64,000 nucleotides of DNA from Actinomycetes bacterium (GTDB lineage: Bacteria > Actinomycetota > Acidimicrobiia > Acidimicrobiales > Acidimicrobiaceae), in NCBI GenBank assembly GCA_021799035.1, contig JAJZBG010000002.1, forward strand, positions 1 to 64,000, in the 5' to 3' direction. Position 1 is the first letter of the stretch; each line of letters starts with the position of its first letter. Under the pieces are notes generated by a model. The model saw only the letters and a list, made by a program, of their open reading frames with translations. It was not told the DNA's origin and searched no databases. Position numbers and translations under genes: made by a program. Shown here in pieces: positions 40,946-61,808 of the stretch.

Positions 40946-41528
40946 TTTCAGCCTTTGCAAGTCTGGCTATTGCATTGAATGCGGCGCTCGCTGCGGCTGA
41001 CCCGCCTTTGCGTCCTTCATTGGTGATGTAGGGCAGCCGAGAGGCGCGCAACAGATCTTTCGACTCGGCCGCTCCCACGAAACCGACCGGAAGGCCGATT
41101 ACGAGCACTGGTTCGAACCAAGTCTTTGACGAGAGATCTACTAGCGCCTCGAGCGCAGTGGGAGCGCAGCCGACAATGAAAATTGCTTTCTGTGGGAATT
41201 TCTCTGCACCCATCAACATCGCTGAGTAACTGCGAGTCGGCCAACCAGACTCAGCTGCTTTGGCATCTTTCAGAAAGCACTCCGTTGGGTAGGAGGTTAT
41301 TCCTGCACGGACCATCTCCACGTCGCAAATTACTTGGCATCCTGTCTTGATCGCTTCCACCCCTGCTCGGATCGAGTTGGCTGAGATGCGAAGCGACTTC
41401 GCCAGTTCGAAATCAGCCGTAGCGTGGATGACGCGCTTTGCTACGGCTGCCTCGAGGGGGTCATATTTGGAGAAATCGAACTCGGAAGAGAGGATCTCGT
41501 AGCTTCGCTTTTCAATGGGATGGATCAT
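40929..41528 (-). CDS. cbiC: precorrin-8X methylmutase
   Basis: A 199-residue mutase that moves the C11 methyl group to C12, giving hydrogenobyrinate or the cobalt analogue. The catalytic His35 lies in VIHATADFE. The ending GRKGGSAAASAAFNAIARL is typical. Its stop overlaps the cbiX start and its start overlaps the ferredoxin stop by four bases, so translation is coupled. Confidence 0.93.
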   Translation of the reverse strand: MIHPIEKRSYEILSSEFDFSKYDPLEAAVAKRVIHATADFELAKSLRISANSIRAGVEAIKTGCQVICDVEMVRAGITSYPTECFLKDAKAAESGWPTRSYSAMLMGAEKFPQKAIFIVGCAPTALEALVDLSSKTWFEPVLVIGLPVGFVGAAESKDLLRASRLPYITNEGRKGGSAAASAAFNAIARLAKAENDQAP

Positions 41529-41725
41529 CGTGGCACCTCATTGATGGCGCTTCTAGGGCAAATCTCAATGCACGCGTAGCACAGATTGCATTTCGAACCA
41601 ATTATCCTCGGTTTTCGAGGAGCTCTTCTGATCGCATGCGTGGGGCAGGTGATCAAGCAGCTTCCGCAGGCTGTGCAGAGGTCGTTGATGCCGAGTTTGG
41701 ATGTCAAAAGGGTGGCTCGGGTCAT
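41525..41725 (-). CDS. 2[4Fe-4S] ferredoxin within the cobalamin operon
   Basis: A 66-residue ferredoxin with two complete CX2CX2CX3CP motifs: Cys17/20/23/27 and Cys46/49/52/56. It sits between cbiG-cobJ (2 bases away) and cbiC (overlapping), so it is co-translated with them. It may donate electrons to a corrin ring reduction or to cobalt reduction before adenosylation; this is inferred from place. Confidence 0.9.
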   Translation of the reverse strand: MTRATLLTSKLGINDLCTACGSCLITCPTHAIRRAPRKPRIIGSKCNLCYACIEICPRSAINEVPR

Positions 41726-41727
41726 GG

Positions 41728-43437
41728 TTAGATCTCATATCCACGTGGAGTGAAAAGAAAGTCGCCAAACTGCCTGGTTGCTGTCGAACCTACTATGACG
41801 AGCGAGGTCATGTCAGCTTCACTAGGATCAAAATCAGATAAGGTGAATATCCTTTTTGACTCGCCAGCCCTGCCAATGTTTCTCACGATCGCAACTGGTG
41901 TCTTGCTCGATCGATAGTGGGAGAGTATCTCGATAGCCTTTGGCAGCTGCCAGCTCCGTTCCCTGGACTTTGGGTTATAGATCAGAGTCACGACGTCTGC
42001 TTCTCCATAGGCGTGCAAGCGCTTTTCGATTGTCCACCACGGAGTCAGAAGATCAGATAGTGAGATGTAAGCGTGGTCATGTCCAAGCGGCGCGCCGAGC
42101 AAAGCACCTCCACCGAGGCCTGCTGTGACACCTGGAACGACCGAGATCCGAGGCATATTTTGAAGAGGTATTTCAGTTGATCCTGCCAGCAAAGCCTCGA
42201 GCTTTTCGAACGTGATTGAGGCCATTGCGTAAACCTCTGGGTCACCTGAACATACCACCGCCACTGAGCGCCCCTGAAGGGCAAGACTGATGGCCGAATC
42301 TGCTCGATCGCCCTCCTCTCCAATTGGCGATCTCAACACGAGTTGGCGTGCGGAGAGAAGCTCTTGGCACTGATCGATATAGGCGCTGTAACCTATCACC
42401 ACCTCGGAGTCTATGATTGCCTCTACGGCAGCAGGGGTTCTCAACATTGGAGTGCCTGGACCCAATCCGACTAGCTTGAGACTGCCGGTTGGCCGCTGTC
42501 TCGCGACGGCAACTGTGGCTGATAGGCTCCTGGTTTTGGTAACTAGAAGTTCTGTTGACTTTGATGCAAGCAACGCGGCAGCTTCGCACACAGAGGGAGT
42601 GCCGACGTAAGAATTGACCTCGCCTGAAGGGTTGGGAACGGCGACTTGGGCCAATTCCGTCGAAGCAAAGGCGGCAATGGGAAGATTCTGGCTAGTCAGG
42701 GCAGGGTGGGTGGACCTTGTGTCTATCGTTGCCAACATGGAGACAGCCCGTCGGTCAAGGTGGTTGTCGGCGCATACCTGTGATATAAGCGTGGAAACAT
42801 CTTCCGCTGTTGCCTCGCTTGAGCATCCGACTCCGATTACGAGACTGGGCGGGATCAGCTGGACAGCTGGCCTTTGGACGTCAGCAAGTGCAGTGGTGGA
42901 GTCTGAAATAACCACCTTTGCCGGCCCCAGCCCGCTTTCAAGCTGGATTGGCTCAGGCCAGTCGATGTCTCGCAGGACTACGGGAGAGTTCCCATCAAGC
43001 ATCGATTCAATGACCTCAGCGACATCTCCCTCTGCCGCATATCCGCTCAATCCATCTACGGCCGCCACTCCTGCGAGTTCGGAGGAAGTGGTGATCACCG
43101 CAGTCCCTCCAGTTCGTTTTGCGAGTTCTCCAGCTAGTCGATTCGAGCCTTTATGGCCCCCGAGGAGCGGGATTATGAACCTGCCGGATTCGTCGACGGA
43201 TATTACGAGGGGGTCTTCGGTTTTTGAAAGGTTTCGCTTGGCTAGCAACCTAACGGCGATCGGAAGCGCCATGACAAGCACAAGGGCCCTATCAGATCTC
43301 CAGTGTTCTTCGAGGATCGGGCCTGGTTTTCCAATCTCGACGTGGAGTCCGAGCTTAACTGCGGTCTTCGCGCCACGTTCATTCAGTGCGATTGCGACTG
43401 GATTGCTTATCCCTGATCTCACTCTAGTAATCCCCAA
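41728..43437 (-). CDS. cbiG-cobJ: fused CbiG (cobalt-precorrin-5A hydrolase) and CobJ/CbiH (C17 methyltransferase)
   Basis: A 569-residue two-domain enzyme. Residues 1 to about 305 form the CbiG part, with VLVMALPIAVRLLAKR and IIPLLGGHKGSNRLAGELA; it opens the ring and loses acetaldehyde. From about 315, GLGPGTPMLRTPAAVEAI, VCSGDPEVYAMAS and VTAGLGGGALLGAPLGHD mark the SAM-dependent precorrin-3B C17-methyltransferase. CbiG belongs to the cobalt-early pathway. The start overlaps the cbiET stop by 19 bases. Confidence 0.92.
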   Translation of the reverse strand: MGITRVRSGISNPVAIALNERGAKTAVKLGLHVEIGKPGPILEEHWRSDRALVLVMALPIAVRLLAKRNLSKTEDPLVISVDESGRFIIPLLGGHKGSNRLAGELAKRTGGTAVITTSSELAGVAAVDGLSGYAAEGDVAEVIESMLDGNSPVVLRDIDWPEPIQLESGLGPAKVVISDSTTALADVQRPAVQLIPPSLVIGVGCSSEATAEDVSTLISQVCADNHLDRRAVSMLATIDTRSTHPALTSQNLPIAAFASTELAQVAVPNPSGEVNSYVGTPSVCEAAALLASKSTELLVTKTRSLSATVAVARQRPTGSLKLVGLGPGTPMLRTPAAVEAIIDSEVVIGYSAYIDQCQELLSARQLVLRSPIGEEGDRADSAISLALQGRSVAVVCSGDPEVYAMASITFEKLEALLAGSTEIPLQNMPRISVVPGVTAGLGGGALLGAPLGHDHAYISLSDLLTPWWTIEKRLHAYGEADVVTLIYNPKSRERSWQLPKAIEILSHYRSSKTPVAIVRNIGRAGESKRIFTLSDFDPSEADMTSLVIVGSTATRQFGDFLFTPRGYEI

Positions 43438-44651
43438 CTAATGAATACAGGATTGTCTCCTTCCAGACGCCAAGAACCATCCGGTAGGCGCTTTCCCACT
43501 GGAAGCATAATCTCCATCATGCTTCCAAGCAGATCTGCCGCCTGCGTCACCCTGTCGATTGCAGCGAAACTTGCAAGGACAAACGTGGGCTGAGATAGCC
43601 GGCTCTTGAGGGCATTAAGAACTCGCGTTCCTCCGCCGCCAATAAAGACGGCGTTAGGATCGGGGAGATTCCAGATCGAATCTTGGATCTCTCCTTGGAC
43701 CACCGTTGCAGATGGAAATCGTGAGGAATTGAGTCTGAGGATTCTTGTTTGCATGGGATCGCGGTCTACGAGAAAAAGTCGAATGGCTGGGATCCTCTCC
43801 AATGCGGTCAGGCCTACACTGCCGCTCCCTGCACCGAGGTCCCACAAACACGGCGACTTAGCTTCAAGATGGGGTAGGAGCTTCGACAGTATCACCTCTC
43901 TGACTTCGGGCTTTGTGATCATGCCACGCTGGTGAAGGAAGTCAGAACTGCTTTTCGATGGAGGTAGCGTCGAGACTGATGGCTCATTCGTTGAGTCATG
44001 CCGAATAGCCAGGAAAATCGAGAGGGGAGCAAACTCGGAGCGTGCGATATTGGCAATCGGCGCCTCTACCACCGATTCGGTATTCGCGCCAAGGTCGCTG
44101 CATACGAGGTACCGGTCAAATTCTGCATGAGCATCGTCGAGGAGCTGGGCGATAGCTTGTGGAGGGTTTTCAGGTGAGCAGAGCACGGCGAGTTTGCGCA
44201 CGGGATTTCTTGGATCGATCGCCCTGAGCAGCTCGGCAATGACTCGCTTGTAGCTTCGCCCATGAGCGCTAATGACAGTGGCATCTTCCCAGCTTGTTTC
44301 TGCTTCGGCAAACGCAAGGGAGACCGATGATGGCGCAGGAAATATCTTGAACCTGGACTCTGGAAAGCTGTTCTTGAGCAGACGAACAATTCCAAAATAT
44401 CCGGGATCTCCCGAGGCCAAAACCAAGATCTGGCCGCTGCGACTGTTGATCTCGTTCACTATTTCATCTATTCCCGCCGTCCAATTGATGACAGTGGGAA
44501 GGCGGCCTGGTATGCGGGCCTCGAGCAACGAGACCTGTCTGGATGAGCCGACCACGGCTTCGGCGGTCCGAAGAATCTCCATTAGCTCTTCTTCGGGAGC
44601 ACCTGTGCGGCCGTGGCCATCAATTCCGAGAATGAATATTGTCCTACGCAC
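43419..44651 (-). CDS. cbiET: fused CbiE-CbiT precorrin-6Y methyltransferase/decarboxylase
   Basis: A 410-residue bifunctional enzyme. The N-terminal CbiE part (about 1-205) has ILVLASGDPGYFGIVRLL and APSSVSLAFA. The C-terminal CbiT part (about 235-410) has LWDLGAGSGSVGLTAL, a classic SAM site. Together they methylate C5 and C15 and decarboxylate the acetate side chain at C12. Equivalent to CobL of the aerobic pathway. Overlaps cbiD and cbiG-cobJ. Confidence 0.93.
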   Translation of the reverse strand: MRRTIFILGIDGHGRTGAPEEELMEILRTAEAVVGSSRQVSLLEARIPGRLPTVINWTAGIDEIVNEINSRSGQILVLASGDPGYFGIVRLLKNSFPESRFKIFPAPSSVSLAFAEAETSWEDATVISAHGRSYKRVIAELLRAIDPRNPVRKLAVLCSPENPPQAIAQLLDDAHAEFDRYLVCSDLGANTESVVEAPIANIARSEFAPLSIFLAIRHDSTNEPSVSTLPPSKSSSDFLHQRGMITKPEVREVILSKLLPHLEAKSPCLWDLGAGSGSVGLTALERIPAIRLFLVDRDPMQTRILRLNSSRFPSATVVQGEIQDSIWNLPDPNAVFIGGGGTRVLNALKSRLSQPTFVLASFAAIDRVTQAADLLGSMMEIMLPVGKRLPDGSWRLEGDNPVFISWGLLE

Positions 44652-45702
44652 GGGCGACGACTCTTTTGCCCTCGAAGTCGACCATGATCACCTCAATGTC
44701 TATTGGTTTTGCAATGTGGTTTGCGCAGGCTCTTTTGGCCATCTGGCAAAGAATCCCCAGAGGCCTTTCGTCGCCCTCTTTTTGGCAAACTTCGAAGAAG
44801 TGTCTGGCCGTATTGGTCTCAGTGGCTGCCGCGGCAATTCTCCCTGACGAGTCTGCCAGCCTTGCAGCCTCTGCCAGAACTTGACTGTTGAGATCGCTGC
44901 GGTGGAAATGGGTCATCATGACCTCATTGGCAAGCTTCGAAATCTTTCCCACCATTCCAATCCAGATGATCTTTTCCACGCCCAATTTTGCAGCGCTCTT
45001 TAGGGCAACACCGGTGAAATCACCGACTTCGACGAAACACACAGAGTCCAAATCGTCATAAAGCTGCATGGCGAATGCCTCTGATCTAGACCCGGTTGCT
45101 AACACAATTGTCCGTTCGCCTTGAGCCGTTGCGACGCTGATCTGCTGGATTACCGAAGCTCTGTATGCAGCAGTCGAGAATGGGCGGACAATGCCGGTTG
45201 TTCCCAGAATGGAAATCCCACCGATGATGCCTAGGCGCGCATTTGTAGTCCTCTTTGCCATCTCCTCACCGCCGGGAACGCTAAATGTAAGTTCAAGCCC
45301 CTTGTCGGTGACCTCTCGGACTGCTTTGGAGATCATCTTCTGAGGTACAGGGTTTATTGCCGGATCGCCCACTGGAAGTCCAAGCCCGGCCTTTGTGACC
45401 GTACCAACCCCCGATCCGGCAACAAATTTCAGTTCAGAGTTTGGAGTCTCTTTTGCATGCACAGTCACCCGTGCGCCGTCTGTGCAATCAGGGTCGTCGC
45501 CGGCATCTTTTACCACGACCGCACCTCCGTCGCCGGAGTCCTCAACGGAGAATGAGACACGTTGGCCCGAAGGGAGTTCGACCTCGACGGCATCCGGGAG
45601 CGTCCCATTTGTAAGGAGGATTACGGCGGCCTTGGCCGCCGCGCTGGCACAAGTTCCGGTCGTCCAGCCGGTTCGTAGTTCGTTAGGCTCCGTGGGACTC
45701 AA
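44644..45702 (-). CDS. cbiD: cobalt-precorrin-5B C1-methyltransferase
   Basis: A 352-residue protein of the CbiD family, which methylates C1 in the cobalt-early pathway and has no close relative in the aerobic pathway. Conserved pieces are RTGWTTGTCASAAAKAAV near the N-terminus, GVGTVTKAGLGLPVGDPAINP, and ISILGTTGIVRPFS. The start is ATG. It overlaps cbiET by eight bases. Confidence 0.94.
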   Translation of the reverse strand: MSPTEPNELRTGWTTGTCASAAAKAAVILLTNGTLPDAVEVELPSGQRVSFSVEDSGDGGAVVVKDAGDDPDCTDGARVTVHAKETPNSELKFVAGSGVGTVTKAGLGLPVGDPAINPVPQKMISKAVREVTDKGLELTFSVPGGEEMAKRTTNARLGIIGGISILGTTGIVRPFSTAAYRASVIQQISVATAQGERTIVLATGSRSEAFAMQLYDDLDSVCFVEVGDFTGVALKSAAKLGVEKIIWIGMVGKISKLANEVMMTHFHRSDLNSQVLAEAARLADSSGRIAAAATETNTARHFFEVCQKEGDERPLGILCQMAKRACANHIAKPIDIEVIMVDFEGKRVVARA

Positions 45703-45794
45703 GGGTGATCCTCAATCTTCTTGCACTGAATCGCAAGTTTAATCATCAAAGAGGCAGAAGTCGCATGTTGGTTCAATCCAGCCGATGACGCAAA

Positions 45795-46595
45795 TCATGG
45801 CTGAGGGTTTGTCGGTCGCCCTGATGTGGTCCCCGGGAGTGAACGCTTTCTGAAGCGATGGGCGTAGCCTGGGGAGTAGAGATGGGAACGTCGGGTGGGG
45901 CCGCTCAACACATCGCCTACTATGACAAGGACTGTTCGATTGGCTCCGCTGCCAGCTAGGTCTTTTGCCAACGATCCAAGTGTCGTGGAGATGACGTCTT
46001 GATCCTTCCAGGTCGCTCGTATCACGATCGCCGCCGGTGTCGACTCGTTGAAGGCCGATCCTTCGCAGAGGAGCTCGTCCTGAAGTTCGTTTGGCCTCGC
46101 TCCGGAGAGGAATATTCCCAACGTTCCGCCGATTCGTGCGTAAGCGCTGACGCTCTCCCTTTCTGGCATGGAAGCCTTGGTTTTGCCCGCTAACCGCGTA
46201 AACACGACGCTTTGGGATAGTGCGGGAATTGTGAGCTCTCTTCGCAGGATTGACGCGGCAGCAGCTACTGAAGTCACACCAGGTATGATCTCAAACTCAA
46301 TCTCCCGTTCGACGCAGAAGTCAATTTGTTCCTGGATAGCTCCATAGACCGATGGGTCGCCCGAATGGAGCCTCGCGATCCTCTTCTCGCCATTTGCGTC
46401 GTACAGCTCAAGCACATCTTCCAGCGTCATCCCGGCGGAATCCAAGATTGCGGCATCTTTGCGGCAATGTGACAGAAGCTCCTCAGGCACCAGGGATGAT
46501 GCCCAAATCACGATATCTGCGCCACGAAGCCTGTCTTGTCCCTTTACGGTGATCAGCTCTGGATCACCTGGTCCTGCACCAATGAAGCTAATCAA
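45795..46595 (-). CDS. cobM: precorrin-4 C11-methyltransferase
   Basis: A 266-residue tetrapyrrole methylase (CobM/CbiF). SAM-site motifs are FIGAGPGDPELITVKG at the start, RLHSGDPSVYGA, and EIIPGVTSVAAAASIL. It methylates C11 of (cobalt-)precorrin-4. About 90 bases separate it from cbiD downstream, and 26 from cobI upstream. The C-terminal tail is longer and basic. Confidence 0.93.
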   Translation of the reverse strand: MISFIGAGPGDPELITVKGQDRLRGADIVIWASSLVPEELLSHCRKDAAILDSAGMTLEDVLELYDANGEKRIARLHSGDPSVYGAIQEQIDFCVEREIEFEIIPGVTSVAAAASILRRELTIPALSQSVVFTRLAGKTKASMPERESVSAYARIGGTLGIFLSGARPNELQDELLCEGSAFNESTPAAIVIRATWKDQDVISTTLGSLAKDLAGSGANRTVLVIVGDVLSGPTRRSHLYSPGYAHRFRKRSLPGTTSGRPTNPQP

Positions 46596-46621
46596 TTCAT
46601 CCTCGTTCCAGGGGGTGGAGC

Positions 46622-47383
46622 CTAGTCAGTTGCGGGCTCAGGTTTTCGTAAAGGCGGGGCTATGACTGTTGCGAGGTACGAGAGCCTTTGAGCGGTGACA
46701 GTATCAAGGTCTGAAATGGTCTCGCCCTCAAGGCCGAGCATCTCTCCGACAACAGCTCCCTTCAGCCGGCCTGCCATGTCGAGCGCAGCTTTGATTTCCT
46801 GAAGGTGGCGGCCGCCTTTGTAGATCACTATGGCAGCGTTTGGGCTACCCAGAGCTTCATCTAAGTCTTCCGTTCCCTCTCTAGCTGTCACCAGGAAGAG
46901 TTTTTCGGTTTCATCCAGAAGATTTAGCCCTCCCATCGAAGCCACCTCCTGAAATGCCATGATTCCGGGGATGGTCCTTATTTCTGTCTCGGGTGAGAGG
47001 TGTGCGACTTCTTTTGCAACGAGCGAGAATGTTGAAAAGACGTTGGGATCGCCAAGGGTGACAAAAGCGATGGTCTTGCCCTCGCAAAGAGGTCCATGCA
47101 GGCCTAGGGCTGCTTCTCGAGCTCCCCTGACTCTGGCCTGGGTGCCGGTTTCTCCAGGGCTCATATCGAAGATGATCCTTTGACAGCTGACTTCAGGAAG
47201 GGCATTCCGGACGATGCTTTCGGCCCTGCCTTCGGTGTCAGTCGACGAGCAGGGGGCTATGACCAGATCAGCTTCTTTAATGGCCCGGATAGCCCTCAAA
47301 GTCAGGTTGCCCGGGTCACCTGGACCTACACCGACTCCAATGAGTCGACCAGTTCTGTAACGGTTTGGAGGGGGATCGTTCAA
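46622..47383 (-). CDS. cobI: precorrin-2 C20-methyltransferase
   Basis: The product (253 residues from the chosen start) is a tetrapyrrole methylase with GVGVGPGDPGNLTLRAIRAI, FVTLGDPNVFSTF and IPGIMAFQEVAS, typical of CobI/CbiL, the first methylation specific to corrins. TTG at 47383 is chosen because AGAGG lies six bases upstream; the frame is open back to a TTG at 47476, but those extra 31 residues have no ribosome site and no family support. It is the first methyltransferase in this run, which continues through cobM to cbiX. Confidence 0.9.
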   Translation of the reverse strand: MNDPPPNRYRTGRLIGVGVGPGDPGNLTLRAIRAIKEADLVIAPCSSTDTEGRAESIVRNALPEVSCQRIIFDMSPGETGTQARVRGAREAALGLHGPLCEGKTIAFVTLGDPNVFSTFSLVAKEVAHLSPETEIRTIPGIMAFQEVASMGGLNLLDETEKLFLVTAREGTEDLDEALGSPNAAIVIYKGGRHLQEIKAALDMAGRLKGAVVGEMLGLEGETISDLDTVTAQRLSYLATVIAPPLRKPEPATD

Positions 47384-47579
47384 GCTCAACCTCTGCTCGG
47401 GAAATGTCTCTGTTTGGTTCGAACTAAAGCCTATCGAGAAAGTTGGTGGCAAAAGCCTCCGTAAGAGTTCACCCAAGCATACCGAGGACGCAATCTACGG
47501 ATACTCTTGCAAGATCCGAGAACTCCATACGGTTGGACTTTTCCAGGCTGGTGCAGGAGCTTGTGCCTGACGTATCGAG

Positions 47580-49142
47580 CTAGAGCTTTGCACCGAGCTT
47601 CTGGAATATCATCTGATTTGTCATCTGCTGAACTGGCGCCCTGTTATCAGTGAGAACGATTCCCTTGCCTGGATGTGGGTTTCGCCAGGACCGCAGTAGT
47701 GACTGAGATACTGGTGCGAGGAAACTGGGAAGGGTATTGGGAGCCGGAGGTGAAGTTGGAGTTCTGCTGGCAATCAGCAGTTCGTTGTAGGCGCCAGGAG
47801 CCTTGGCAATGTAAACGTGAGGGAACACAGTTGCGAGAGTGCGTTCAATTGCCTGGATGAGTGGAGCATGGGCTGATGTTGCGTTGACATTCATGGCGAG
47901 AATTCCATCTGAGTTGAGGTGCTGGAGGCACTCCTGAAAGAACTGTTTGGTTGTCAGGTAGAACGGGATGTAAATCTCCTGGCTGTACGCATCAACGATC
48001 ATAAGGTCGTATGTGGCTTTAGTTGTTCTGATGAAAACCCGGCCATCTTCATTAATCACATGAGCCGCCGACTTCTTGAGGTGGAAGTACCTGTTTCCTA
48101 GCTGGATCAGCTTGGGATCTATTTCGACTCCGGTCACTGGGACTGGCGCTCTGAATGGGTCCACGTCTCTGGAATAGAGGGTCGGAATTGTTCCTGCAGC
48201 CATTCCAATGAGCAGTGTATTGACGCTTTTTGACTTGGGGAAAATGTATGGCAGCGTGAGATAGGCGTCGTAATAGAGTCCCGTCAGCCTGTTGGGAGTG
48301 TAGATTGACTGGATTCCAGTCGAGTCATTCACAGAAAGAGCTATTTGGGAACTATTGAGCCTGTAAACCTGAGCGAACTGGTAAGGTGTTTCGACCTCGG
48401 TTATCAGCCCTTTGACCGGTTTCAACAAGGACGTGCTTGCTTGGGTAAAGACGAGGGGCAGGATGCTCGCGAGCAGAAATACGGGTTTTTGGAGAGTTGA
48501 TAGGCCTAGAACCATCAGGACTGTGGCAGACGCCCAAATCGTGGTTCGCACTCCAAAGGTTGGGATTGTGTAAAGCGTAGGAATGAAGGTGCCGAAAAGG
48601 CTGCCGAAGGTTGACCAGAAGTAGAGTGAGCCGGTTTTGGTCCCAGCTGACTCCATTTGATTTATAACCAGGCGAACCGCATAAGGCGATATCGCACCGA
48701 GTGCTGCTACAGGCAGCACGAAGAGGGCAGAGGTGCCAAGAAGAGATGCGATCACTGTCCCTGCAGGTGTTTCAAGCAGTCCGCCAGAGACGGCAGTCAG
48801 CAGGGGATTTGCGAGGAAAGGCAGAAGTGCCACGAATCCGCCCGCACCAATGGCCAGAAGGCTCATTCCTGATGGTGTAGGCCATCTGTCAGCGAGTCTG
48901 CCGCCTAAAGCGTAGCCGGCCGACAGAGCCAAGAGGATGATGCCTATTAGCGTGGACCACACGATCTCCGAGTTTCCGAAGAATGGCTCGAGCAGACGCT
49001 CGGCGCTGAACTCTACAGCCATCACCGAGGCACCCGTGAAAAAGACGAAGAACCGCAGGAAGTTGTGGCGGACGCGCCAATCGCCCTTTGGTTTGATTGT
49101 CTCCGCTGGCATTCTTCCCCTGTTCCCCCGCCTGCGGCTCAT
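47580..49142 (-). CDS. membrane protein with C-terminal spermidine synthase-like domain
   Basis: A 520-residue protein. The first 235 residues form about seven transmembrane helices similar to a transporter half. The C-terminal part resembles polyamine aminopropyltransferase: VTGVEIDPKLIQLGNRYF and YDLMIVDAYSQ. The usual GGGDG loop is altered to GMAAGT, so the donor may differ or activity may be lost. Such fused proteins are widespread and little studied. It stands between two runs of cobalamin genes on the same strand. Confidence 0.82.
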   Translation of the reverse strand: MSRRRGNRGRMPAETIKPKGDWRVRHNFLRFFVFFTGASVMAVEFSAERLLEPFFGNSEIVWSTLIGIILLALSAGYALGGRLADRWPTPSGMSLLAIGAGGFVALLPFLANPLLTAVSGGLLETPAGTVIASLLGTSALFVLPVAALGAISPYAVRLVINQMESAGTKTGSLYFWSTFGSLFGTFIPTLYTIPTFGVRTTIWASATVLMVLGLSTLQKPVFLLASILPLVFTQASTSLLKPVKGLITEVETPYQFAQVYRLNSSQIALSVNDSTGIQSIYTPNRLTGLYYDAYLTLPYIFPKSKSVNTLLIGMAAGTIPTLYSRDVDPFRAPVPVTGVEIDPKLIQLGNRYFHLKKSAAHVINEDGRVFIRTTKATYDLMIVDAYSQEIYIPFYLTTKQFFQECLQHLNSDGILAMNVNATSAHAPLIQAIERTLATVFPHVYIAKAPGAYNELLIASRTPTSPPAPNTLPSFLAPVSQSLLRSWRNPHPGKGIVLTDNRAPVQQMTNQMIFQKLGAKL

Positions 49143-50993: not shown

Positions 50994-51518
50994 TCAGTAC
51001 TCGATTCCCTTTTTTGCCTTTATTCCCTGGTCGTAGGCGTGTTTCACCTTGCGCATCTCGGTCACTGTGTCGGAAATGTCGATGATCTCTTGCGGACAGT
51101 CTCTTCCTGTTATCACGACGTTCGTCTTAGGATTTCGGTGAACCAAGGCTGTTCGGACTTCCTCGACCTCAATCCATCCGTACTTAACCGCATACGTCAG
51201 CTCGTCGAAGATGACAAGATCGAAGTCGCCTGACGACAACATGGATTTGGCTACTTCGAACGCATGCCTTCCTTTTGAGACAGTCTCATCAAGGTCGGTA
51301 GATTCCCAGGTGAATCCGTCTCCAAGCGTATGCCATTCGATTCCAAGGTGGTCCGCCAGCTTTCTTTCGCCAGTCTTCCATTTTCCGCTCTTGATAAACT
51401 GAACAACCCCAACTTTCCAGTTCCTAGCCCAACCTCTGGCCATTACCCCGAAAGCTGCCGATGATTTGCCTTTGCCATTCCCCGTATTAACCAGAATTAT
51501 TGATTCAGCGCGTGCCAT
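50994..51518 (-). CDS. cobO: cob(I)yrinate a,c-diamide adenosyltransferase
   Basis: The product (174 residues) transfers the adenosyl group of ATP to cob(I)alamin-type corrinoids (CobO/BtuR/CobA type). The P-loop TGNGKGKSS spans residues 12-20, and VITGRDCPQEIIDISDTVTE is typical of the family. ATG 51518 is chosen because family similarity starts there; the frame runs open to 51620 across the opposite-strand riboswitch, which is not credible coding. A likely promoter for the riboswitch lies inside this gene on the other strand. Confidence 0.93.
   Translation of the reverse strand: MARAESIILVNTGNGKGKSSAAFGVMARGWARNWKVGVVQFIKSGKWKTGERKLADHLGIEWHTLGDGFTWESTDLDETVSKGRHAFEVAKSMLSSGDFDLVIFDELTYAVKYGWIEVEEVRTALVHRNPKTNVVITGRDCPQEIIDISDTVTEMRKVKHAYDQGIKAKKGIEY
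51472..51500 (+). promoter_or_regulatory. candidate promoter for the riboswitch and cobU operon
   Basis: TTGCCA (51472-51477) and AATTAT (51495-51500) are separated by 17 bases. Transcription would begin near 51507, about 36 bases before the riboswitch. The elements lie within the 5' end of cobO on the opposite strand. Confidence 0.35.
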
Positions 51519-51542
51519 ACCCAAAATGGTAGTATTCCATAG

Positions 51543-51683
51543 AGTGCATTTAGGGAATCCGGTGAAAATCCGGAGCTGTCCCGCAACTGTAACGTTGAGC
51601 CGACTCCAACAGTTGACCACTGCGATGAATTAGCGGGAAGGTCGGAGAAGGTGATGATACGGAGCCAGGATACCTGTGCACAC
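51543..51683 (+). promoter_or_regulatory. cobalamin (AdoCbl) riboswitch
   Basis: The conserved parts of the B12 riboswitch are present in order: GGGAA at 51553, CCGGTGAAAATCCGG from 51559, the GCTGTCCCGCAACTGTAA box from 51575, GACCACTGCGA near 51615, GCGGGAAG near 51633, and GGAGCCAGGATACCTG from 51661 (the B12 box). GTGCA (51544) and TGCAC (51677) can close the outer stem. It precedes cobU by about 33 bases, so corrinoid binding should lower expression of the plus-strand operon. Confidence 0.95.
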
Positions 51684-51715
51684 TCTGCAGGTCGAAATGT
51701 TCGATTAGGAGATGC

Positions 51716-52258
51716 GTGGACATCAAAAGTTCAGGGAAGTACGCCTTCCTTGGTGGAACCAGTTCTGGCAAGTCGGCCTTGGCTGAACAGCTAGTAGCTG
51801 CCTCGGGACCCGATATTTGCTATCTAGCGACTGCTCCTGCCACCTGGAGTAATGGCGACCCGGAATTTGCCTCGAGGGTCGCAAGGCACAAAGAGCGCAG
51901 GGGGGATAGGTGGCGGCTGATAGAGCTGCTTGAGCCAGACGCATTATATGACTTGATACTTAATGCTGAGATGCCAACGGTGATTGATTCAGTGGGAGCT
52001 TGGCTGGCTTTTGACGATAGGTTCGAGCCCGATCTCGATCGTTTGGAATCAGCGATATCAAGGTCGAAGGTGCCGCTTTCGTTCGTAGCAGAAGAGAGCA
52101 GCCTCGGAGTGCTTCCAATGAACACTGTGGCACGGGACTTTGTCGATCGCTTGGGTGCCGTTAATCAAAGGATCGTGAAGAGTGTCGACCGCTCATTCTT
52201 GGTGGTCGCCGGAGGACTGCTGGAAGTCTCACAGGCTAAATGGCAAGAGGCGAGATGA
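51716..52258 (+). CDS. cobU: adenosylcobinamide kinase/guanylyltransferase
   Basis: A 180-residue enzyme that phosphorylates adenosylcobinamide and then adds GMP. The P-loop GGTSSGKS spans residues 13-20. His58 in ARHKERRGDRW is in the place of the guanylylated histidine of CobU. The start is GTG with AGGAG upstream. It is the first gene after the riboswitch. The stop overlaps the cobS start. Confidence 0.93.
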   Translation: MDIKSSGKYAFLGGTSSGKSALAEQLVAASGPDICYLATAPATWSNGDPEFASRVARHKERRGDRWRLIELLEPDALYDLILNAEMPTVIDSVGAWLAFDDRFEPDLDRLESAISRSKVPLSFVAEESSLGVLPMNTVARDFVDRLGAVNQRIVKSVDRSFLVVAGGLLEVSQAKWQEAR

Positions 52259-52986
52259 GGGAGGACATCTTAGGGGCAGTCAGTTTTCTGACTATTTTCG
52301 GACGCGGCCACGAACCGACCAATTCCAGCAGGTACTGGTTTTCGTTTTCTGGCGTGCTTGTTGGATTCATATCGGGTTCTGTGTGGTGGCTTCTGAGAAA
52401 GGTGCACCTTCCCCTGGTTGATGCGGCGATCGTAGTCCTTGTCATATTGGTTGTGACTGGCGCAATCCACATTGACGGATTGGCCGATGCTTCAGATGGG
52501 CTATTGGCGCATTTGCCTAGGCACAGGCGATTCGAGGTCATGTCTGGTCCCGAGGTGGGAGCCTTTGGCGTTACTGCTGTCGTGATGACCCTGATAATCA
52601 TGACGGCATCACTCTCTACGATTTCACCTGATCCATTGCTGCTTGTCGGGTTGATGGGGCTTTCACGTGCACTGTGTGCATTGGCAATAGAGCTGTTTCC
52701 TTATGCAAAAGCCGAAGGAATAGTGTCAAGTTTCAACGAATCTTCCCACAGGGGGGCGGGTAGCGTTGGAGTGCTGGCAGCAGAGGCCGTAGTTTGCACG
52801 GCTTTGGTGGTGGCTTCAATGCCCTTTAGAGGAGCTGCTCTTGCTGTTACTGTGCTTGGAGTTCAGGCAATAATTTTGTGGCGTTCGGGGAAGCTTCTCG
52901 GTGGCTACACCGGAGATGTGCTCGGAGCTTCGATAGTGGTATCTGAAACGCTCGCCCTTGTGGTTGGAGCGCTGGTTCAGCGATGA
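52255..52986 (+). CDS. cobS: adenosylcobinamide-GDP ribazoletransferase
   Basis: A 243-residue integral membrane enzyme that joins adenosylcobinamide-GDP with alpha-ribazole (phosphate) to make cobalamin. The signature HIDGLADASDG is at residues 72-82 (Asp74, Asp78, Asp81). About six transmembrane helices follow. ATG 52255 overlaps the cobU stop as ATGA; ATG 52240 is a possible longer start. The stop overlaps the cbiB start in the same way. Confidence 0.93.
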   Translation: MREDILGAVSFLTIFGRGHEPTNSSRYWFSFSGVLVGFISGSVWWLLRKVHLPLVDAAIVVLVILVVTGAIHIDGLADASDGLLAHLPRHRRFEVMSGPEVGAFGVTAVVMTLIIMTASLSTISPDPLLLVGLMGLSRALCALAIELFPYAKAEGIVSSFNESSHRGAGSVGVLAAEAVVCTALVVASMPFRGAALAVTVLGVQAIILWRSGKLLGGYTGDVLGASIVVSETLALVVGALVQR

Positions 52987-53927
52987 CGAGACCGAGGACG
53001 CAAATCGCTAAGCAGATGATGGGTGCTGCCGTAGGTTTGCTTGTTGATCGCGCACTTGGTGAACCCCCGCAGATGGTCCATCCAGTCGCGAATTTCGGGA
53101 AGCTTATGGGCAAACTCGAGCTGTACCTCTGGCAGGACAACCCAGTCTCAGGCTTCTGGTACGCAACCTTTGGACTGGTGATTGCATCGATTACGTCTCT
53201 TGTTGTCGATTCACCGTTCATAGGCACAGCATTAGGAACTTACATTGCGGTTGCAGAGCGATCGCTCCTGGAGCATGCCTTTTCCGTGAAGGCTTCGCTC
53301 GACAATGGTGCTGTTGATGACGCGCGACGTGATTTGCCGGCTTTGGTCGGAAGAGATGTATTGGATCTGAATGAATTCGAAATAGCCAGAGCGGTGGTTG
53401 AATCGGTAGCCGAGAATTCTTCGGATGCAGTTGTGGCTCCTATGCTTTACGCAGCAATCTTAGGGAGTCGCGGAGCTCTGGCCTATAGAGCCATAAATAC
53501 CATGGATGCCATGGTCGGCCATAAGAGCAGCACGTATCTGCGCTTTGGGAGGATTTCAGCAAGGTTGGATGATTTTGCAAACCTCATGCCGTCTAGAGTT
53601 GCAGCAGTATTGACTTGGCTCACGCCGAACGGGCGGTTCCCCCATCCCGGGCTGATTCTTTGCGATGCCAAACGCCATCCGTCGCCGAATGCTGGCGTGA
53701 TCGAGTCAACCTACGCCCATAAGCTACATGTGACTCTCGGCGGAGAGAATTCTTACTTTGGCAGGCAAGAAATCAGAGAGCCGATGGGCCAAGGGCGCAA
53801 GCCATCCTCTCGAGATATTTGGGAAGCCGCTTGCCTTTGCAGGCGTGTGGACACCATGCTTGCTGCACTGCTGCTGGGAGCTGGCTTTGCCCTCTACCTT
53901 CTTGGGTGCGTAGATGAACGTCCTTAG
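52983..53927 (+). CDS. cbiB: adenosylcobinamide-phosphate synthase
   Basis: A 314-residue membrane protein (CbiB/CobD family) that attaches the aminopropanol (phosphate) linker to adenosylcobyric acid. Conserved parts: DRALGEPPQMVHPV near the start, VVESVAENSSDAVVAPM, YRAINTMDAMVGHKS and FANLMPSR. It starts with an ATGA overlap with cobS and ends 14 bases inside the next gene. Confidence 0.93.
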   Translation: MTRPRTQIAKQMMGAAVGLLVDRALGEPPQMVHPVANFGKLMGKLELYLWQDNPVSGFWYATFGLVIASITSLVVDSPFIGTALGTYIAVAERSLLEHAFSVKASLDNGAVDDARRDLPALVGRDVLDLNEFEIARAVVESVAENSSDAVVAPMLYAAILGSRGALAYRAINTMDAMVGHKSSTYLRFGRISARLDDFANLMPSRVAAVLTWLTPNGRFPHPGLILCDAKRHPSPNAGVIESTYAHKLHVTLGGENSYFGRQEIREPMGQGRKPSSRDIWEAACLCRRVDTMLAALLLGAGFALYLLGCVDERP

Positions 53928-56397
53928 CAATGCACAAATTGATGCGGCAAGAAAATTTCTTGTCGGGAGAGCTCATGGAGACAGCGCGTACGGGCTGGAG
54001 CGCCACCTCGGTTTGGAAACTGGAGATCTTCTTGATCTGGCGACCTCTATGAATCCGGTAGCTCCGGACTTCTCCCCCCTTCTCTTGGGTCACCTCGATT
54101 CGCTAAAGAGGTATCCAGACGCAACCAAGTCGCGAGAAGCTTTGGCTGAGGCGCTAGAGGTCGAGTCCGAGCGTTTGATCTTGTGTAATGGCGGGGCTGA
54201 AGCGATCGAACTTGTTTCGAAGCTAGTGACGCGGGGATTTGTCAAGTCGCCGGATTTTTCGCTTTACCGCACGCACATCTCCAGCTACGATCCGACTGGT
54301 CCTTGGTGGGCATCCAACCCTAACAACCCCATCGGAACACTGCTTGACAAGGGAGAGAGACCTGATGTCGTTGATGAGGCGTTCTATCAGATTGCCACCG
54401 GTAGCTGGACGAGGCGAGACTTCGAACACGGAAGCTTTGTCTTAGGGTCGCTCACGAAGCTTTTCGGATTGCCTGGCCTAAGAATTGGCTACCTGGTCTG
54501 CCCTGATGCACAGTCAGCAGGCTTGTTAAATGCTAAGCAGCCAAAGTGGGAGGTCAACTCACTTGCAGCCGCCTCTCTCGGTGAAATGCTTGGCAGCTTA
54601 GATCTGAAAGAGGTTTCTGGAAGCGTTGCAAAGCTGAGAGAGAAGCTTGTCTCTATCTTGCGAGCGAGCGGCTTTAAGCCAAGCCCTTCCGCTGCAAACT
54701 ACGTATACGTTCCTGAGGCCGGAGAACTGCTCGAAAGACTTCTGCGGCACAAGGTGCTGGTGCGCGACACGGGATCTTTCGGGCTTTCAGGCGGCGTCAG
54801 GATTGCAGTGCCAAATGAGGACGGGTTGGGCAGGATTCAAGAGGCTCTGTCCTCCCAAAACCAGCGGAAGGCAAGAGTTCCTCGCAGCAAGGGATCGTTG
54901 ATGATTGTGGGTACCGGCTCTGATTCCGGTAAGAGCACTCTCGTGACGGCACTTTGCCGGATCCTCTCGGACCGGGAGATCTCCGTTGCTCCATTCAAGT
55001 CGCAGAACATGTCGCTCAATTCGGCAGTGACCCCGAGCGGCCACGAAATCGGGAGGGCCCAAGAACGCCAAGCCAGGGCTAGTCGCATTAGTCCGGAGGT
55101 GTCGATGAACCCTATTCTGCTTAAGCCGACTTCTGACATGACATCCCAGGTTGTGGTTCTTGGGGAGCCAGCGTATGAGTGTAGCGCGAAGGAATACCAG
55201 GTCAAAAAGCGCGAGCTGCTAGATATCGTGCTGAAGTCATACGCTTTTCTCAGCCAGCGGTTCGATGTGATTCTCTTGGAGGGTGCGGGATCGCCAGCCG
55301 AGATCAATCTCCTCGAGAACGACATTGTCAATCTTGGGTTGGCAAATCGCGTGGGAGCCAAGGCCTTGCTCGTTGGTGACATCGATCGGGGAGGCGCCTT
55401 TGCCTCTCTGTTCGGAACCGTCGCCATACTCCCCGACACTCTTTCGAGGCTGATCGGTGGATTTGTGATCAACAAGATTCGTGGCGACAGTTCTCTTCTG
55501 GACTCAGGGATTTCCAGGATCGAAGCGTTGACTTCCCGAAAGGTCTTTGGGGTAATTCCTTACTTTGAAGATATGCATGTTGATGCTGAAGACTCTCTTG
55601 CGCTTTCCAACTACGGTGCTTTCCAAGACACGGATGGGGATGGTCTAGATATCGCGGTTATTGCGTTCCCACGGTTATCCAACTTCACTGACTTCGATCC
55701 GCTGGTTGAAGAGCGGCACTGCAATGTGCGATTGGTCAACAATCCTGGGCAGCTTGGCGATCCCGATCTGATCGTGCTCCCAGGATCGAAGTCGACGGCA
55801 GCCGATCTGACCTGGCTGAAGAGGAGAGGATTTGATCGCGCGATCAATCGTAGCCGTTCCAGTGGCACCGTGATTCTTGGAATATGTGGGGGATATCAGA
55901 TCATGGGAGGCGAGATAAGCGACGATTTTGAATCACGTTGCGGGACAATTGAAGGCCTTGGCCTGCTTGAGGTGATGACCAGATTTGAGCGTACCAAAGT
56001 CACTCTGCCGAGACGAGGAGTTTCGCGGTATTTCGGGGGCGTGCAGGTGTCGGGCTACCAGATCCATCAGGGGCGTGTGGCAACACAGGGTTCCGACGCC
56101 CTTTTCTGTCTCAATCCTCCGGTTCGGGACTTTCCGGGCGTCGATCTGTTTGACGGCGCCGTCGATAAGGACGGAGTTACCTTCGGAACTACGTTACATG
56201 GAATTTTCGAGGGCGATGAGTTTCGGTTGGCCTTTCTGTCTCACGTTGCAAGCCTTCGTGGCAAGCAGTTCGAGTCAACTCTCGAATTCCACGAGTTTCG
56301 TGACCGACAGATCGATGATCTGGCCCGAATCGTCTCTAAGAACCTTGATGTTGACAGGCTTTTGACGTCTATGTTCGGGCTTTCCAGCCAACTGTAA
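53914..56397 (+). CDS. cobQ: fusion of CobC/CobD-type aminotransferase and cobyric acid synthase
   Basis: An 827-residue protein. Residues 1-325 resemble threonine-phosphate decarboxylase/aminotransferase (CobD of Salmonella, CobC): LILCNGGAEAIEL, NPNNPIG, VVDEAF, and the PLP lysine Lys182 in SLTKLFGLPGLRIGY. Residues 328-827 are cobyric acid synthase (CobQ/CbiP): P-loop GTGSDSGKS from 333, FKSQNMSLNS, and the amidotransferase Cys658 in GICGGYQ. The aminotransferase part lacks about 30 residues between DFSLYR and NPNNP compared with the usual fold. The fusion would link aminopropanol-phosphate supply to the acceptor cobyric acid. Confidence 0.93.
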   Translation: MNVLSNAQIDAARKFLVGRAHGDSAYGLERHLGLETGDLLDLATSMNPVAPDFSPLLLGHLDSLKRYPDATKSREALAEALEVESERLILCNGGAEAIELVSKLVTRGFVKSPDFSLYRTHISSYDPTGPWWASNPNNPIGTLLDKGERPDVVDEAFYQIATGSWTRRDFEHGSFVLGSLTKLFGLPGLRIGYLVCPDAQSAGLLNAKQPKWEVNSLAAASLGEMLGSLDLKEVSGSVAKLREKLVSILRASGFKPSPSAANYVYVPEAGELLERLLRHKVLVRDTGSFGLSGGVRIAVPNEDGLGRIQEALSSQNQRKARVPRSKGSLMIVGTGSDSGKSTLVTALCRILSDREISVAPFKSQNMSLNSAVTPSGHEIGRAQERQARASRISPEVSMNPILLKPTSDMTSQVVVLGEPAYECSAKEYQVKKRELLDIVLKSYAFLSQRFDVILLEGAGSPAEINLLENDIVNLGLANRVGAKALLVGDIDRGGAFASLFGTVAILPDTLSRLIGGFVINKIRGDSSLLDSGISRIEALTSRKVFGVIPYFEDMHVDAEDSLALSNYGAFQDTDGDGLDIAVIAFPRLSNFTDFDPLVEERHCNVRLVNNPGQLGDPDLIVLPGSKSTAADLTWLKRRGFDRAINRSRSSGTVILGICGGYQIMGGEISDDFESRCGTIEGLGLLEVMTRFERTKVTLPRRGVSRYFGGVQVSGYQIHQGRVATQGSDALFCLNPPVRDFPGVDLFDGAVDKDGVTFGTTLHGIFEGDEFRLAFLSHVASLRGKQFESTLEFHEFRDRQIDDLARIVSKNLDVDRLLTSMFGLSSQL

Positions 56398-56412: not shown

Positions 56413-59400
56413 GTGTTTCTCTATCTGACAAATGCCGACACCGAGCTTCTGACGCTTCGCACCGTATCTGACATCTTGGCTGATTTGGGCATAGAACTTC
56501 ACGCGGTGTCGACATCGTCAGAGATGTGGAGGGATCTCGTTGACTCGGCTTCGGTAATTTGTGTAAGGCTCTTAGGGGGCAAAGACTCATTTTCTGAAGG
56601 TTTAGAGACGCTTACCGAGCTGGCTGCCGCAAAACATCTCCCAATGCTTTGCTTCTCAGGTGAGTCCATTCCTGATCCCGAATTAACCATGCTGTCGACG
56701 GTGCCAAGCGGTATTGTCACGCAGGCGTTTGAATACCTCGTGTGCGGTGGAGTGCGCAACTATGAGAATTTTGTACGTTTCGTATCCGATACCACATTGT
56801 TTTCTGGACTAGGTTTCGAGCCTGCCGAGGCTGTACCAGATGTGGGAATCTTCACGAGGATTCAATCTGGCGGGGATGCACCGAGTGCGGTAATCGTGTT
56901 TTACCGTGCGCACTTTGTCTCTGGCAATACTGTGTTCATTGAATCGTTGGCCAGAGAAGTGGCCGAGGCAGGGCTTGACGTCACGGCGGTCTATTGTTAC
57001 TCGCTTAGGAGCGACTCCAAACGTAGTCCAGTATACGAACTCATCAGTTCCTTAGCCCCTGACGTCATCATCACCACCGTGTTGGCAGGAGGCTCGATGG
57101 CTTCCGATGGACAGTCATGGGACGTTCTGCAACTTGAGGAGCTTGGGGTTCCTGTCGTTCAGGCAATCGTTTCCTCGTCGACCCGCTTGGAATGGGATGA
57201 AAGCCGCTCTGGACTGCCGCCACTCGATGTCACTATGCAGGTTGCGATACCCGAGTTTGACGGCAGAATTGTGACGGTGCCATTTTCTTTCAAGGAGGTT
57301 GTCGATTCGGATGATTACTTTGGAAGTGAGATAACGGCCTACAGGGCCGATCTCGATCGCTGTAGAAGGATCGCGGAATTTGTGGCGCGCCTTTCACGGT
57401 TGCGGCAGAAGCCGAACCGCGACAAAAAGATTGCCATAGTCATATCGGCATACCCTACGAAGAGGTCGAGGCTCGGCAATGCCGTGGGGCTTGACACGCC
57501 CGAGTCGGTTATTTCTCTGCTTCGTGCTCTCAAAGATGCGGGCTATAACATCGACAGAATTCCTGAGAGCGGAGATGATCTGATGGATGAGCTCATGGCC
57601 ACTTTCAACTACGACGTACCGACACTCTCGGTTGGACAGGTTGAGAGGGCCGAGCTGCTGCTGTCGGCCGATGAGTACTTAGCAGAGTTCGACAGGTTCG
57701 GAGACGAAGTGCGAAAGGGGCTTGTCGATGCCTGGGGAGAACCGCCCGGATCCGTTTACGTGGAAGGATCGGACTTCATCTTTCCCGGGATCAAATTAGG
57801 CGAAGTGTTTGTGACGATTCAGCCGCCGCGAGGGTTTGGCGAAAATCCGATCGCCATATACCATTCGCCCGACATGGCACCTACCCATCATTACATGGCT
57901 TTTTACCGAATGCTTGACGTAAAGTACCATGCCGACGCCATAGTCCATGTTGGGAAGCATGGAACTCTTGAATGGCTTCCCGGGAAAGGCATGGGGCTGT
58001 CGCGGAACTGCTATCCGGATCAGGCCCTTGGTTCTGTTCCACTCGTCTACCCGTTTGTTGTCAACGATCCAGGTGAGGGTACTCAAGCAAAGCGCAGGGC
58101 CCATGCTGTGATTGTGGATCACATGGTTCCCCCGCTTACCCGGGCTGAAGTCTACGACGAGCTATCGCGCTTGGAATCTTTGCTTGACGCCCATGCTCGC
58201 TATTCGGGAATGGATCCTTCTAAGCTTCCAGCTTTGAGGCGCGAGATTTGGGGTGTCCTGGTCGATGCGCAAATCACCACCGATCTCAAATTGGACAAGT
58301 CGCCTAATTTTGAAGACTCAGGTTTCGATGATTTGATCGGCGAGATTGATGGCTATTTATGTGAGATCAAAGATGCCCAAATACGAGGTGGATTACACGT
58401 GTTGGGTCGCATCCTCGAAGGCAGCGCCGAAGTGGAGATGCTCGCTGCTCTGAGCAGGTTGGGGGGGCCAGCTTCACCCTCTTTGCGCGAGGCTGTGGCC
58501 TGTGAAATGGGGATTGATCTTGAAATCTTCAGGACAAAAGAATTGGATCTCGTGGAAGCGGAGGTGAAGAGGATCATCTCCGTGGCCCAAGAGCACGGAT
58601 TCAGCCTAAGTTCTCCAGAGCTGTTCCCGACGAGCTATCGCCAAGCGGTAGAGTATTTGTGCAGGGAGGTTGTTCCAAGGTTGCGAGCGACATCCAACGA
58701 GATTCCTGCAGTCCTCGCGGCGCTGGAAGGCCGCTATATTCCTTCCGGCCCTTCAGGCGCTCCTTCAAGGGGAATGGTGCACGTCCTCCCGACTGGGCGA
58801 AATTTTTATTCCATAGACCCAAAGGCTCTTCCTTCTCCCCAGTCTTGGCCAGTTGGTCAGAAACTGGCCGATGCACTGGTCAAGCGGTACCTAGGGGAGG
58901 AGGGGGAGTACCCGTCGTCTGTGGGAATTGTCGTTTGGGGAACGGCTGCTATGAGAACTGCCGGGGACGACATTTCTCAGACGCTGGCCCTGATTGGGGT
59001 TCGGCCCAGATGGGATGTTCAGACTGGCAGGGTGGTGGGGGTTGAGCTTATCGATAGAGAGGAGCTTGCCAGGCCAAGGGTGGATGTGACTCTCAGGGTT
59101 TCGGGGTTCTTCCGTGACGCTTTTCCGCATGTGATCTCACTGCTTGATGAGGCATTTTCAATTGCTTCGAGCAGCCCCGAAGATGACAACCCTATGTCAG
59201 GATCGAAAGAGCTGCCGCGGATCTTTGGTCCAAAGCCAGGCTCATACGGTTCAGGTATCCTTCCCCTGATTGAGGCGAGGAACTGGCGTTCGAACGAGGA
59301 TCTTGCCAAGGTCTATATGACCTGGTCTGGATATTCGTACTCTTCAGGAGCATACGGAAAGTTCGATCCCGAATCCATGGCGGCAAGGTTTGCCAAGATC

Positions 59401-59931
59401 CAGGTTGCTTCGAAGAATCAGGATAACAGGGAGCACGACATCTTCGATTCGGATGATTACATGCAGGATCATGGCGGACTTATTGCGGCCATTCGTCACA
59501 TGTCTGGAACAGACCCCAAGGCCTATTTCGGGGATTCCTCGAATCCGTCAAACCCTCGAGTAAAAACGTTGGCTGAAGAGGCTGCGAAGGTCGTGCGATC
59601 CCGTGTTGTGAATCCGAAATGGATCGAGGCTATGAAGCGTCATGGTTACAAAGGTGCATTTGAGATGGCGGCAACGGTCGACTACCTCTTTGGATACGAC
59701 GCAACGGCTAAAATCGTCGAAGACTGGATGTATGAGAAAGTCACCCAGGCGTATGTTGCAGATGCTTCAGTTAGGAAGTTCTTCGAGAAGTCGAACCCAT
59801 CGGCCCTGACTTCAATTTCCGAAAGATTACTGGAAGCTCACCAGAGGGGGCTTTGGAACGCCTCCGAGGAGTCGTTGGATGCGATTAACTCTGCGATACT
59901 AGAGGCTGAGGGTTGGGAGGAGATTAGGTGA
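56413..59931 (+). CDS. cobN: cobaltochelatase large subunit CobN
   Basis: A 1172-residue protein of the CobN/BchH/ChlH family, the porphyrin- or corrin-binding subunit of the ATP-driven chelatases. The signature [19 protein letters not shown] starts at His512. The overall pattern [15 protein letters not shown] and [14 protein letters not shown] is CobN-like. In the late pathway it inserts cobalt into hydrogenobyrinate diamide. The start is GTG with GAGAGG upstream. The stop overlaps the next gene as GTGA, and the partner ATPase is encoded there. Confidence 0.93.
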
Positions 59932-61808
59932 GAGATTTTCCGTTTACGGCTGTGGTGGCCCAGGATCAGTTGAAGATGTCCTTGTTGCTCAACGCCATCG
60001 ATCCCAGAATCGGTGGCGTATTGATTCGGGGTGACAAGGGCTCTGGCAAGACGACTCTTGCGAGAGCCCTTTCCGAGCTGCTTCCCAATGGGGCACCGTT
60101 CATCGAGGTTCCAGCAGGGGCGACAGAGGACCGCGTGAAAGGATCGGTAGATCTCGCCAAGATGGTCTCAGATGGCACAGTCGCCTCCACCGGCGGACTC
60201 CTGGCTGAAGCGAATGGTGGGGTTCTTTACGTGGACGAGGTAAATCTCCTTGCCGACCACATCGTCGATCTGCTTCTAGATGCTGCAGCCACCGGTGTCA
60301 ACCGGATTGAGAGAGACGGAGTTTCCGCCGTCTTCCCGGCAAAATTTGTCCTGATCGGCTCAATGAACCCAGAAGAAGGGGAGCTTAGGCCTCAGCTGCT
60401 GGATCGCTTCGGCCTGTCGGTGGAGGTTGACGGAATTGTGAATCCGGAGCATCGGAGCCTGGCTTTAATGAGGCGCCTCGAATTCGATAGCAATCCAGAA
60501 GCATTCTGCAAACTGTTTGAACAAGAGCAAGACCAGCTGCGTCAAAGGCTCGGCGAGTCACAAAATGTCAATCGGGATCACCCCATGGGCCTAAGTGCGG
60601 AGCTTTCTAAAGAGCTTTTCAAGGTCGTGACAGAGCTCTGCATAAGTTACGGTGCTCAGGGTTTGCGAGCCGATTTGACGATGGCGCGGGCGGCGGCGGC
60701 TCATGCGGCACTTAGCGGCCGCGACCGCGTTGAAACTGAAGATATCAAGGCTGTCGCACCTCTTGTGCTGGCTCATCGAGCTAGAAGAGATCCTCTTCAG
60801 GGGTTTGAGGATTCACGGAGCGTCTCCGATCTGGTAGAGCAGATCCATAGGAACAGCGAGTCGAAGGGTGGGGGGAGTTCCAAGTCTCAGTCCCAAGCAG
60901 AGGGTGCGGATGAGCGGGCCGGTGAAGGTCCGGAGCGTTCGGGGCCCAGGCCCAAGCTTTCAGAGAAGCCGTCTGGATCGAGTCTGACTTTGGGTTTCGG
61001 TGATGGTCCGATCATAAGGTCTGCAATTCAGCAAAACACCAAGGGCATTTACTCGGATAGAGTTGGGGGAGGGCCCAAAGGACCCACGCCATCCGGCTAT
61101 AGCAGGAGAATCGAGGGGGTCTCAGATAGGCGTGGCGTTGGCGTTGACGTTGTGGGAACTATTACCACCGCGGCATTGCGACGGAGCACGGGATCGATGC
61201 TCGAGAGCGGTTCATTTGTAGGGCCAGAAGACATTGTGATGTCTGAAAAGCTAGCCAAGCAGGGACGTACCATTCTCGTTGGGTTGGATCTTTCGGGATC
61301 CATCGGGATCAAGTCGAGGATACAGCTCGCTTCGACTGTGATTGAGTCTTTGCTCCTCGACGCCTACCAAACCCGAGATCGCGTTGGTGTGATAGTGATT
61401 GCGGAAGGTACCGCCAGAGTCCTGCAAAGGCCCACTCGATCTGTTGAGATGATTCGGGCCAAACTCTCTGGCATTGTCACCGGTGGGATAACACCGCTGG
61501 CGATGGGGATCGATCTTTTGACTGAGCAAGCCAAGACCTGCAGGCAGCTCGGCGAAAACCCGTATTGCATTCTTGTCACTGATGGGAGGGCTACCGGCGG
61601 CGAGTTTGCTTTTCAGGAAGCTCTTCAAGCTGCGCAAAGGTTTGGATCGGAATCGATTCCGAGCTGCATAATTGATATTGAGGATTCCCCGGTAAACATG
61701 GGCTTGGCTAGGAAGCTTGCGAAGGAGACGGGCTCCCAGCTGATTTCGTATCCAGAGCTTGCTCAGTTGATTACTAGCTCTGGTGTGAAACACGCTCTCT
61801 TCCGATAA
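59928..61808 (+). CDS. chelatase ATPase with VWA domain (ChlI-ChlD type)
   Basis: A 626-residue fusion of an AAA+ ATPase (ChlI/BchI type) and a VWA domain (ChlD/BchD type). Walker A GDKGSGKT ends at Thr42; [10 protein letters not shown] is Walker [20 protein letters not shown] is the sensor region. A flexible Ser/Gly/Glu-rich linker (about residues 305-345) follows. The metal-ion-dependent adhesion site DLSGS begins at Asp454, with VTDGRATGG later. It should drive CobN, as CobS and CobT do in the aerobic system. The GTG start overlaps cobN by four bases. Confidence 0.9.

Follow-up and report, generated by a model that had tools for sequence, protein, structure and literature searches.

A gene in the B12 cluster of this 64,000-nucleotide stretch of DNA (the window) encodes a compact CobD-type PLP domain and a cobyric acid synthase (CobQ/CbiP) in one chain of 827 aa. 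We read the product as a fusion of cobyric acid synthase with a threonine-phosphate decarboxylase predicted to be functional, encoded in a B12 operon headed by a riboswitch, with the compaction being old and the fusion later. We put the probability of this reading at about 85%. The chemistry is ordinary and the type of fusion is known; the new part is apparently the compact CobD subfamily.

Judged from the families of the two halves, the N-terminal compact CobD would convert L-threonine-O-3-phosphate to (R)-1-aminopropan-2-ol O-2-phosphate, and the C-terminal CobQ/CbiP would amidate adenosylcobyrinic acid a,c-diamide to cobyric acid. CbiB, encoded directly upstream, would then link both products. 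This supports the pathway logic of a preliminary description of this DNA, in which one half makes the aminopropanol-phosphate arm and the other makes the acid that receives it. The PLP half is predicted to be catalytically active and to dimerise, and its tethering to CobQ may bring a benefit, either by channelling or only by keeping the two enzymes at equal amounts.

The fused gene and its B12 locus

The 64-kb window contains most of a B12 pathway. The order on the plus strand is riboswitch, cobU, cobS, cbiB, cobD-cobQ, cobN and a ChlI/ChlD-type gene. Genes for a CobA-type adenosyltransferase and for CobB/CbiA are on the opposite strand, as are the corrin-ring genes.

40106 to 47476, minus: corrin-ring genes (CfbA/CbiX-like chelatase, cobH/cbiC, cbiG-cobJ, cbiE-cbiT, cbiD, cobM/cbiF, cobI/cbiL)
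51497..51695, plus: cobalamin riboswitch RF00174, scoring 91.8 bits against a gathering score of 31.5, located between cobU and the divergently oriented adenosyltransferase gene
51716..52258, plus: CobU/CobP adenosylcobinamide kinase (112.9 bits, under the cut-off of 161)
52240..52986, plus: CobS cobalamin synthase (102 bits, just under the cut-off of 110)
52983..53927, plus: CbiB adenosylcobinamide-phosphate synthase, directly upstream of the fused gene
53914..56397, plus: fused cobD-cobQ(cbiP) gene, a single 827-aa frame with an ATG start, zero internal stops and family matches in both halves
53914..54867, plus: compact CobD/CobC PLP domain, residues 1-318 (H21, N47, Y67, F115, N138, D154, K182, R190, W212, R284, R296)
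54850..54894, plus: variable linker, residues 313-327 (7-67% identity among genus members)
54889..56394, plus: cobyric acid synthase CobQ/CbiP domain, residues 326-827 (P-loop 333, Cys658, HG 762-763)
56413..59931, plus: CobN cobaltochelatase subunit (Pfam)
59928..61808, plus: ChlI/ChlD-type chelatase AAA and VWA protein (Pfam)

The 5' end of the fused gene overlaps the 3' end of cbiB by 14 nt. A CobC/CobD-type PLP domain and a complete CobQ/CbiP in one chain, as first described, were confirmed by NCBIfam and Pfam matches to both halves; the Pfam domains are Aminotran_1_2, CbiA and GATase_3. The residue numbers given earlier are all correct: Lys182 is in SLTK, the P-loop GTGSDSGKS starts at 333, and Cys658 is in GICGG. 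The C-terminal arginine is Arg296. Cobyric acid synthase profiles match residues 328-819 above their cut-offs (NF001989, 576 bits; TIGR00313, 479 bits), and this full-length match, together with the P-loop and the GATase cysteine, places the C-terminal half in CobQ/CbiP. With both enzymes in one chain and CobD N-terminal, the protein is a CobD/CbiP fusion.

For the N-terminal half, the best-scoring PLP family by a wide margin is TIGR01140 (CobD), which matches residues 21-312 with 141.5 bits, under its curated cut-off of 290.55. Standalone compact CobDs are also under this cut-off, at 164-172 bits. The score is lowered because two stretches of the domain are shortened. Since the cut-off is missed, we class the PLP half as a compact CobD-like variant and not as a member of the curated model. 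HisC belongs to the same fold family, but this identity was rejected for the PLP half, as TIGR01141 gives only 88 bits against a cut-off of 276.55. With the CobD of this lineage falling under the curated cut-off, B12 reconstructions that use it may count this step as absent from Acidimicrobiia.

No second CobD was seen in the window besides the fused domain. The preliminary description had considered that a separate intact cobD might be present elsewhere, and none was found in the rest of the draft genome. Since the draft (97 contigs) is 94.9% complete, a second CobD could be missed and its absence is not final. The best TIGR01140 match elsewhere is a 355-aa protein with 192 bits. It was rejected as a second CobD because it is HisC, with 308.7 bits on TIGR01141 (above the cut-off of 276.55), and its gene adjoins hisD, hisB and other his genes in a his operon, the neighbours being named from sequence. 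Another candidate was rejected as DapC-like.

Shortened stretches and the PLP site

About 30 residues had been described as missing in one stretch before NPNNP. The shortening there is real, at about 26 residues, but it is not the only one: a second loss of about 10-12 residues lies between NPNNP and DEAF.

54256..54318, plus: first shortened stretch, with 20 residues from F115 to N135 where five canonical CobDs/fusions have 37-50
54325..54375, plus: second shortened stretch, N138 to D154, 16 residues against 24-28 in those five proteins plus L146 and HisC

In an alignment with the compact-family profile, residues 126-149 of Salmonella CobD (1lc5) have no partner. An AlphaFold model of the PLP half (pLDDT 95.4, pTM 0.92) has six strands at large-domain sheet positions. 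The missing elements were placed using the strand order known for fold type I. Judged from the secondary structure of the model and from what is known of the fold, a six-strand sheet would be consistent with the loss of an edge strand. The shortening appears to strip an edge strand and helices while sparing the active site. Two elements would be gone from the periphery of the large domain: the edge strand with its next helix, and a helix that canonical CobD has between NPNNP and DEAF.

The preliminary description had proposed comparing a predicted structure with CobD. The nearest solved structure to the model is Salmonella CobD (1lc7), with a Z of 31.9 at 2.4 A over 303 residues, and by this match the model has the CobD fold. 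The 281-aa core of the shortest compact member is also predicted with confidence (pLDDT 95.5), and 279 of its residues align to 1lc7. Compact CobD is therefore an example of how small a part of this fold may suffice around an intact PLP site.

Conservation of NPNNP, DEAF, the lysine and the C-terminal arginine had been noted before, and N138, D154, K182 and R296 do match canonical CobD. Over 11 PLP/substrate columns (H, N, Y, F, N, D, K, R, W, R, R), the compact and canonical CobDs are the same except for F/Y at position 115, which is Phe in compact CobD and Tyr in two fusions. Among the best 80 compact relatives found in a species-level genome collection, N47, Y67, F115, D154, K182, R190, W212 and R284 are invariant, and H21, N138 and R296 are nearly so. 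One compact member, the start of which is uncertain, has Gly in place of H21. For two pairs with unsaturated dS, the PLP half has a dN/dS of about 0.13-0.15 and, by this sequence measure, is under purifying selection.

These results bear on the earlier suggestion that the active site has been rebuilt or that the domain has become structural. The existence of unfused compact relatives, the canonical PLP site, the purifying selection and the confidently predicted, intact fold all argue against both versions. A PLP half that is non-catalytic and serves CobQ in a structural or regulatory role would fit the two shortened stretches and the TIGR01140 score below the curated cut-off. We consider it very improbable, given that K182, D154, N138, R190, R284, R296 and others are (near-)invariant in the best 80 homologues, which are mostly unfused, that selection is purifying and that the draft genome gave no other CobD candidate.

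The PLP half could also be a decarboxylase whose substrate has shifted, such as one that makes ethanolamine phosphate from L-serine phosphate for norcobamides, like SMUL_1544 of Sulfurospirillum. The structural matches include SMUL_1544 (6oux), with a Z of 27.1. In addition, the draft genome gave no recognisable dedicated threonine kinase: there is no clear PduX-type enzyme, and only two GHMP kinase matches (L147 and L148; G000:C24 and C15). The lack of such a kinase also counts against the reading that we favour, as does the TIGR01140 score. Salmonella CobD is clearly the better structural match, however, and the compared substrate and PLP positions all match canonical CobDs, which makes a shifted substrate improbable compared with the threonine-phosphate decarboxylase that we favour.

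Distribution of the compact CobDs

All of the best 80 relatives are compact; 68 are unfused and 12 are fused. Nearly all are labelled Acidimicrobiia, Actinomycetes or Actinobacteria, and Acidithrix ferrooxidans is included. The cores of the compact CobDs are 281-319 aa long. CbiB is encoded nearby in 72/80 of the relatives' loci and CobQ in 61/80. The compaction is independent of fusion, since the same form is found in unfused, cob-clustered homologues across Acidimicrobiia.

Scores across the class (296 genomes) fall into two clearly separate groups: 33 near-full-length matches have 342-467 bits, and nearly all others, partial genes aside, have 142 bits or less. The PLP-domain tree splits the compact rows from the seven canonical rows, which are long-branched, with an SH-aLRT of 99. 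A phylum sample yielded two compact CobDs from the same phylum outside the class (L137 and L143), which were possibly acquired by gene transfer. No relative of compact CobD was found in the viral contigs searched, and the open-access literature searched yielded no paper on compact CobDs or on the CobD of Acidimicrobiia. The compact CobDs are apparently a real, discrete and undescribed subfamily found mainly in Acidimicrobiia, and compaction would be an old trait of this subfamily.

A further proposal is that the compact CobDs are a distinct subfamily near the minimal fold-type-I decarboxylase (core of about 281 aa), that CobQ or CbiB may bind to their stripped surface, and that fusion would fix a pre-existing complex and channel the aminopropanol-phosphate arm. 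We regard this as unlikely.

Origin of the fusion and related proteins

A search of related genomes, also proposed earlier, found the same fusion in seven of the eight other genomes of the genus (61-65% identity) and in one genome of another family. Among genus members, identity is 56-87% in the PLP half, 59-93% in the CobQ half and 7-67% in the linker. A frameshift or assembly error at the junction had been raised as a concern. Neighbouring cobD and cobQ genes are found in many unfused relatives, and a lost stop could unite them into an artefact. No such error was found at the junction, and since seven other same-genus assemblies carry the fusion, with a diverged linker, an artefact is rejected as having a negligible chance.

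In unfused relatives, cobQ often comes directly after cobD: it lies within 300 bp downstream in 34 of the 80 loci, and in a few more the genes overlap by a few bases. On the PLP-domain tree, the fused state requires about five changes, at least two of which are forced by well-supported branches; the fusion was therefore gained (or lost) more than once. It would have arisen after the compaction, by the union of neighbouring genes on more than one occasion. That adjacent cobD and cobQ genes were united repeatedly hints that it may be advantageous to produce or position both enzymes together.

The CobD-CobQ fusion as a kind is already known. A CobD/CbiP fusion has been described in Geobacter (Trichlorobacter) lovleyi, aligning with the one of Pelobacter carbinolicus (PMC3403914), and another is present in Leptospira interrogans (WP_001052891). 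All three have both enzymes in the order seen here. In contrast to the compact 827-aa protein, the G. lovleyi and Leptospira fusions are 863-aa proteins with a full-length CobD half, and they cluster together on the PLP-domain tree, apart from the compact clade. The bifunctional CobBC (NF053748) also joins a B12 amidotransferase to a CobC-type PLP domain, but there the amidotransferase is CobB (a,c-diamide synthase), and the two domains stand in the opposite order; the present fusion scores 84 bits on this model against a cut-off of 950.

Salmonella CobD (1lc5/1lc7/1lc8) and CobC (9jfb/9jff) share the fold of the compact domain (Z of 31.9 and 27.9, respectively), as well as the HG(G) N-terminal motif, the PLP-site and C-terminal Arg residues and the B12 gene context. 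The compact domain has about 300 aa, compared with 364 in the CobD chain and 341 in the CobC chain, and differs from both in the two shortened stretches on either side of NPNNP.

Two further fusions were observed in the B12 cluster, CbiG with CobJ/CbiH at 41728-43437 and CbiE with CbiT at 43419-44651. Also inside the cluster, at 47580-49142 on the minus strand, is a gene whose 520-aa product has a hydrophobic N-terminal half and contains a spermine-synthase-like domain.
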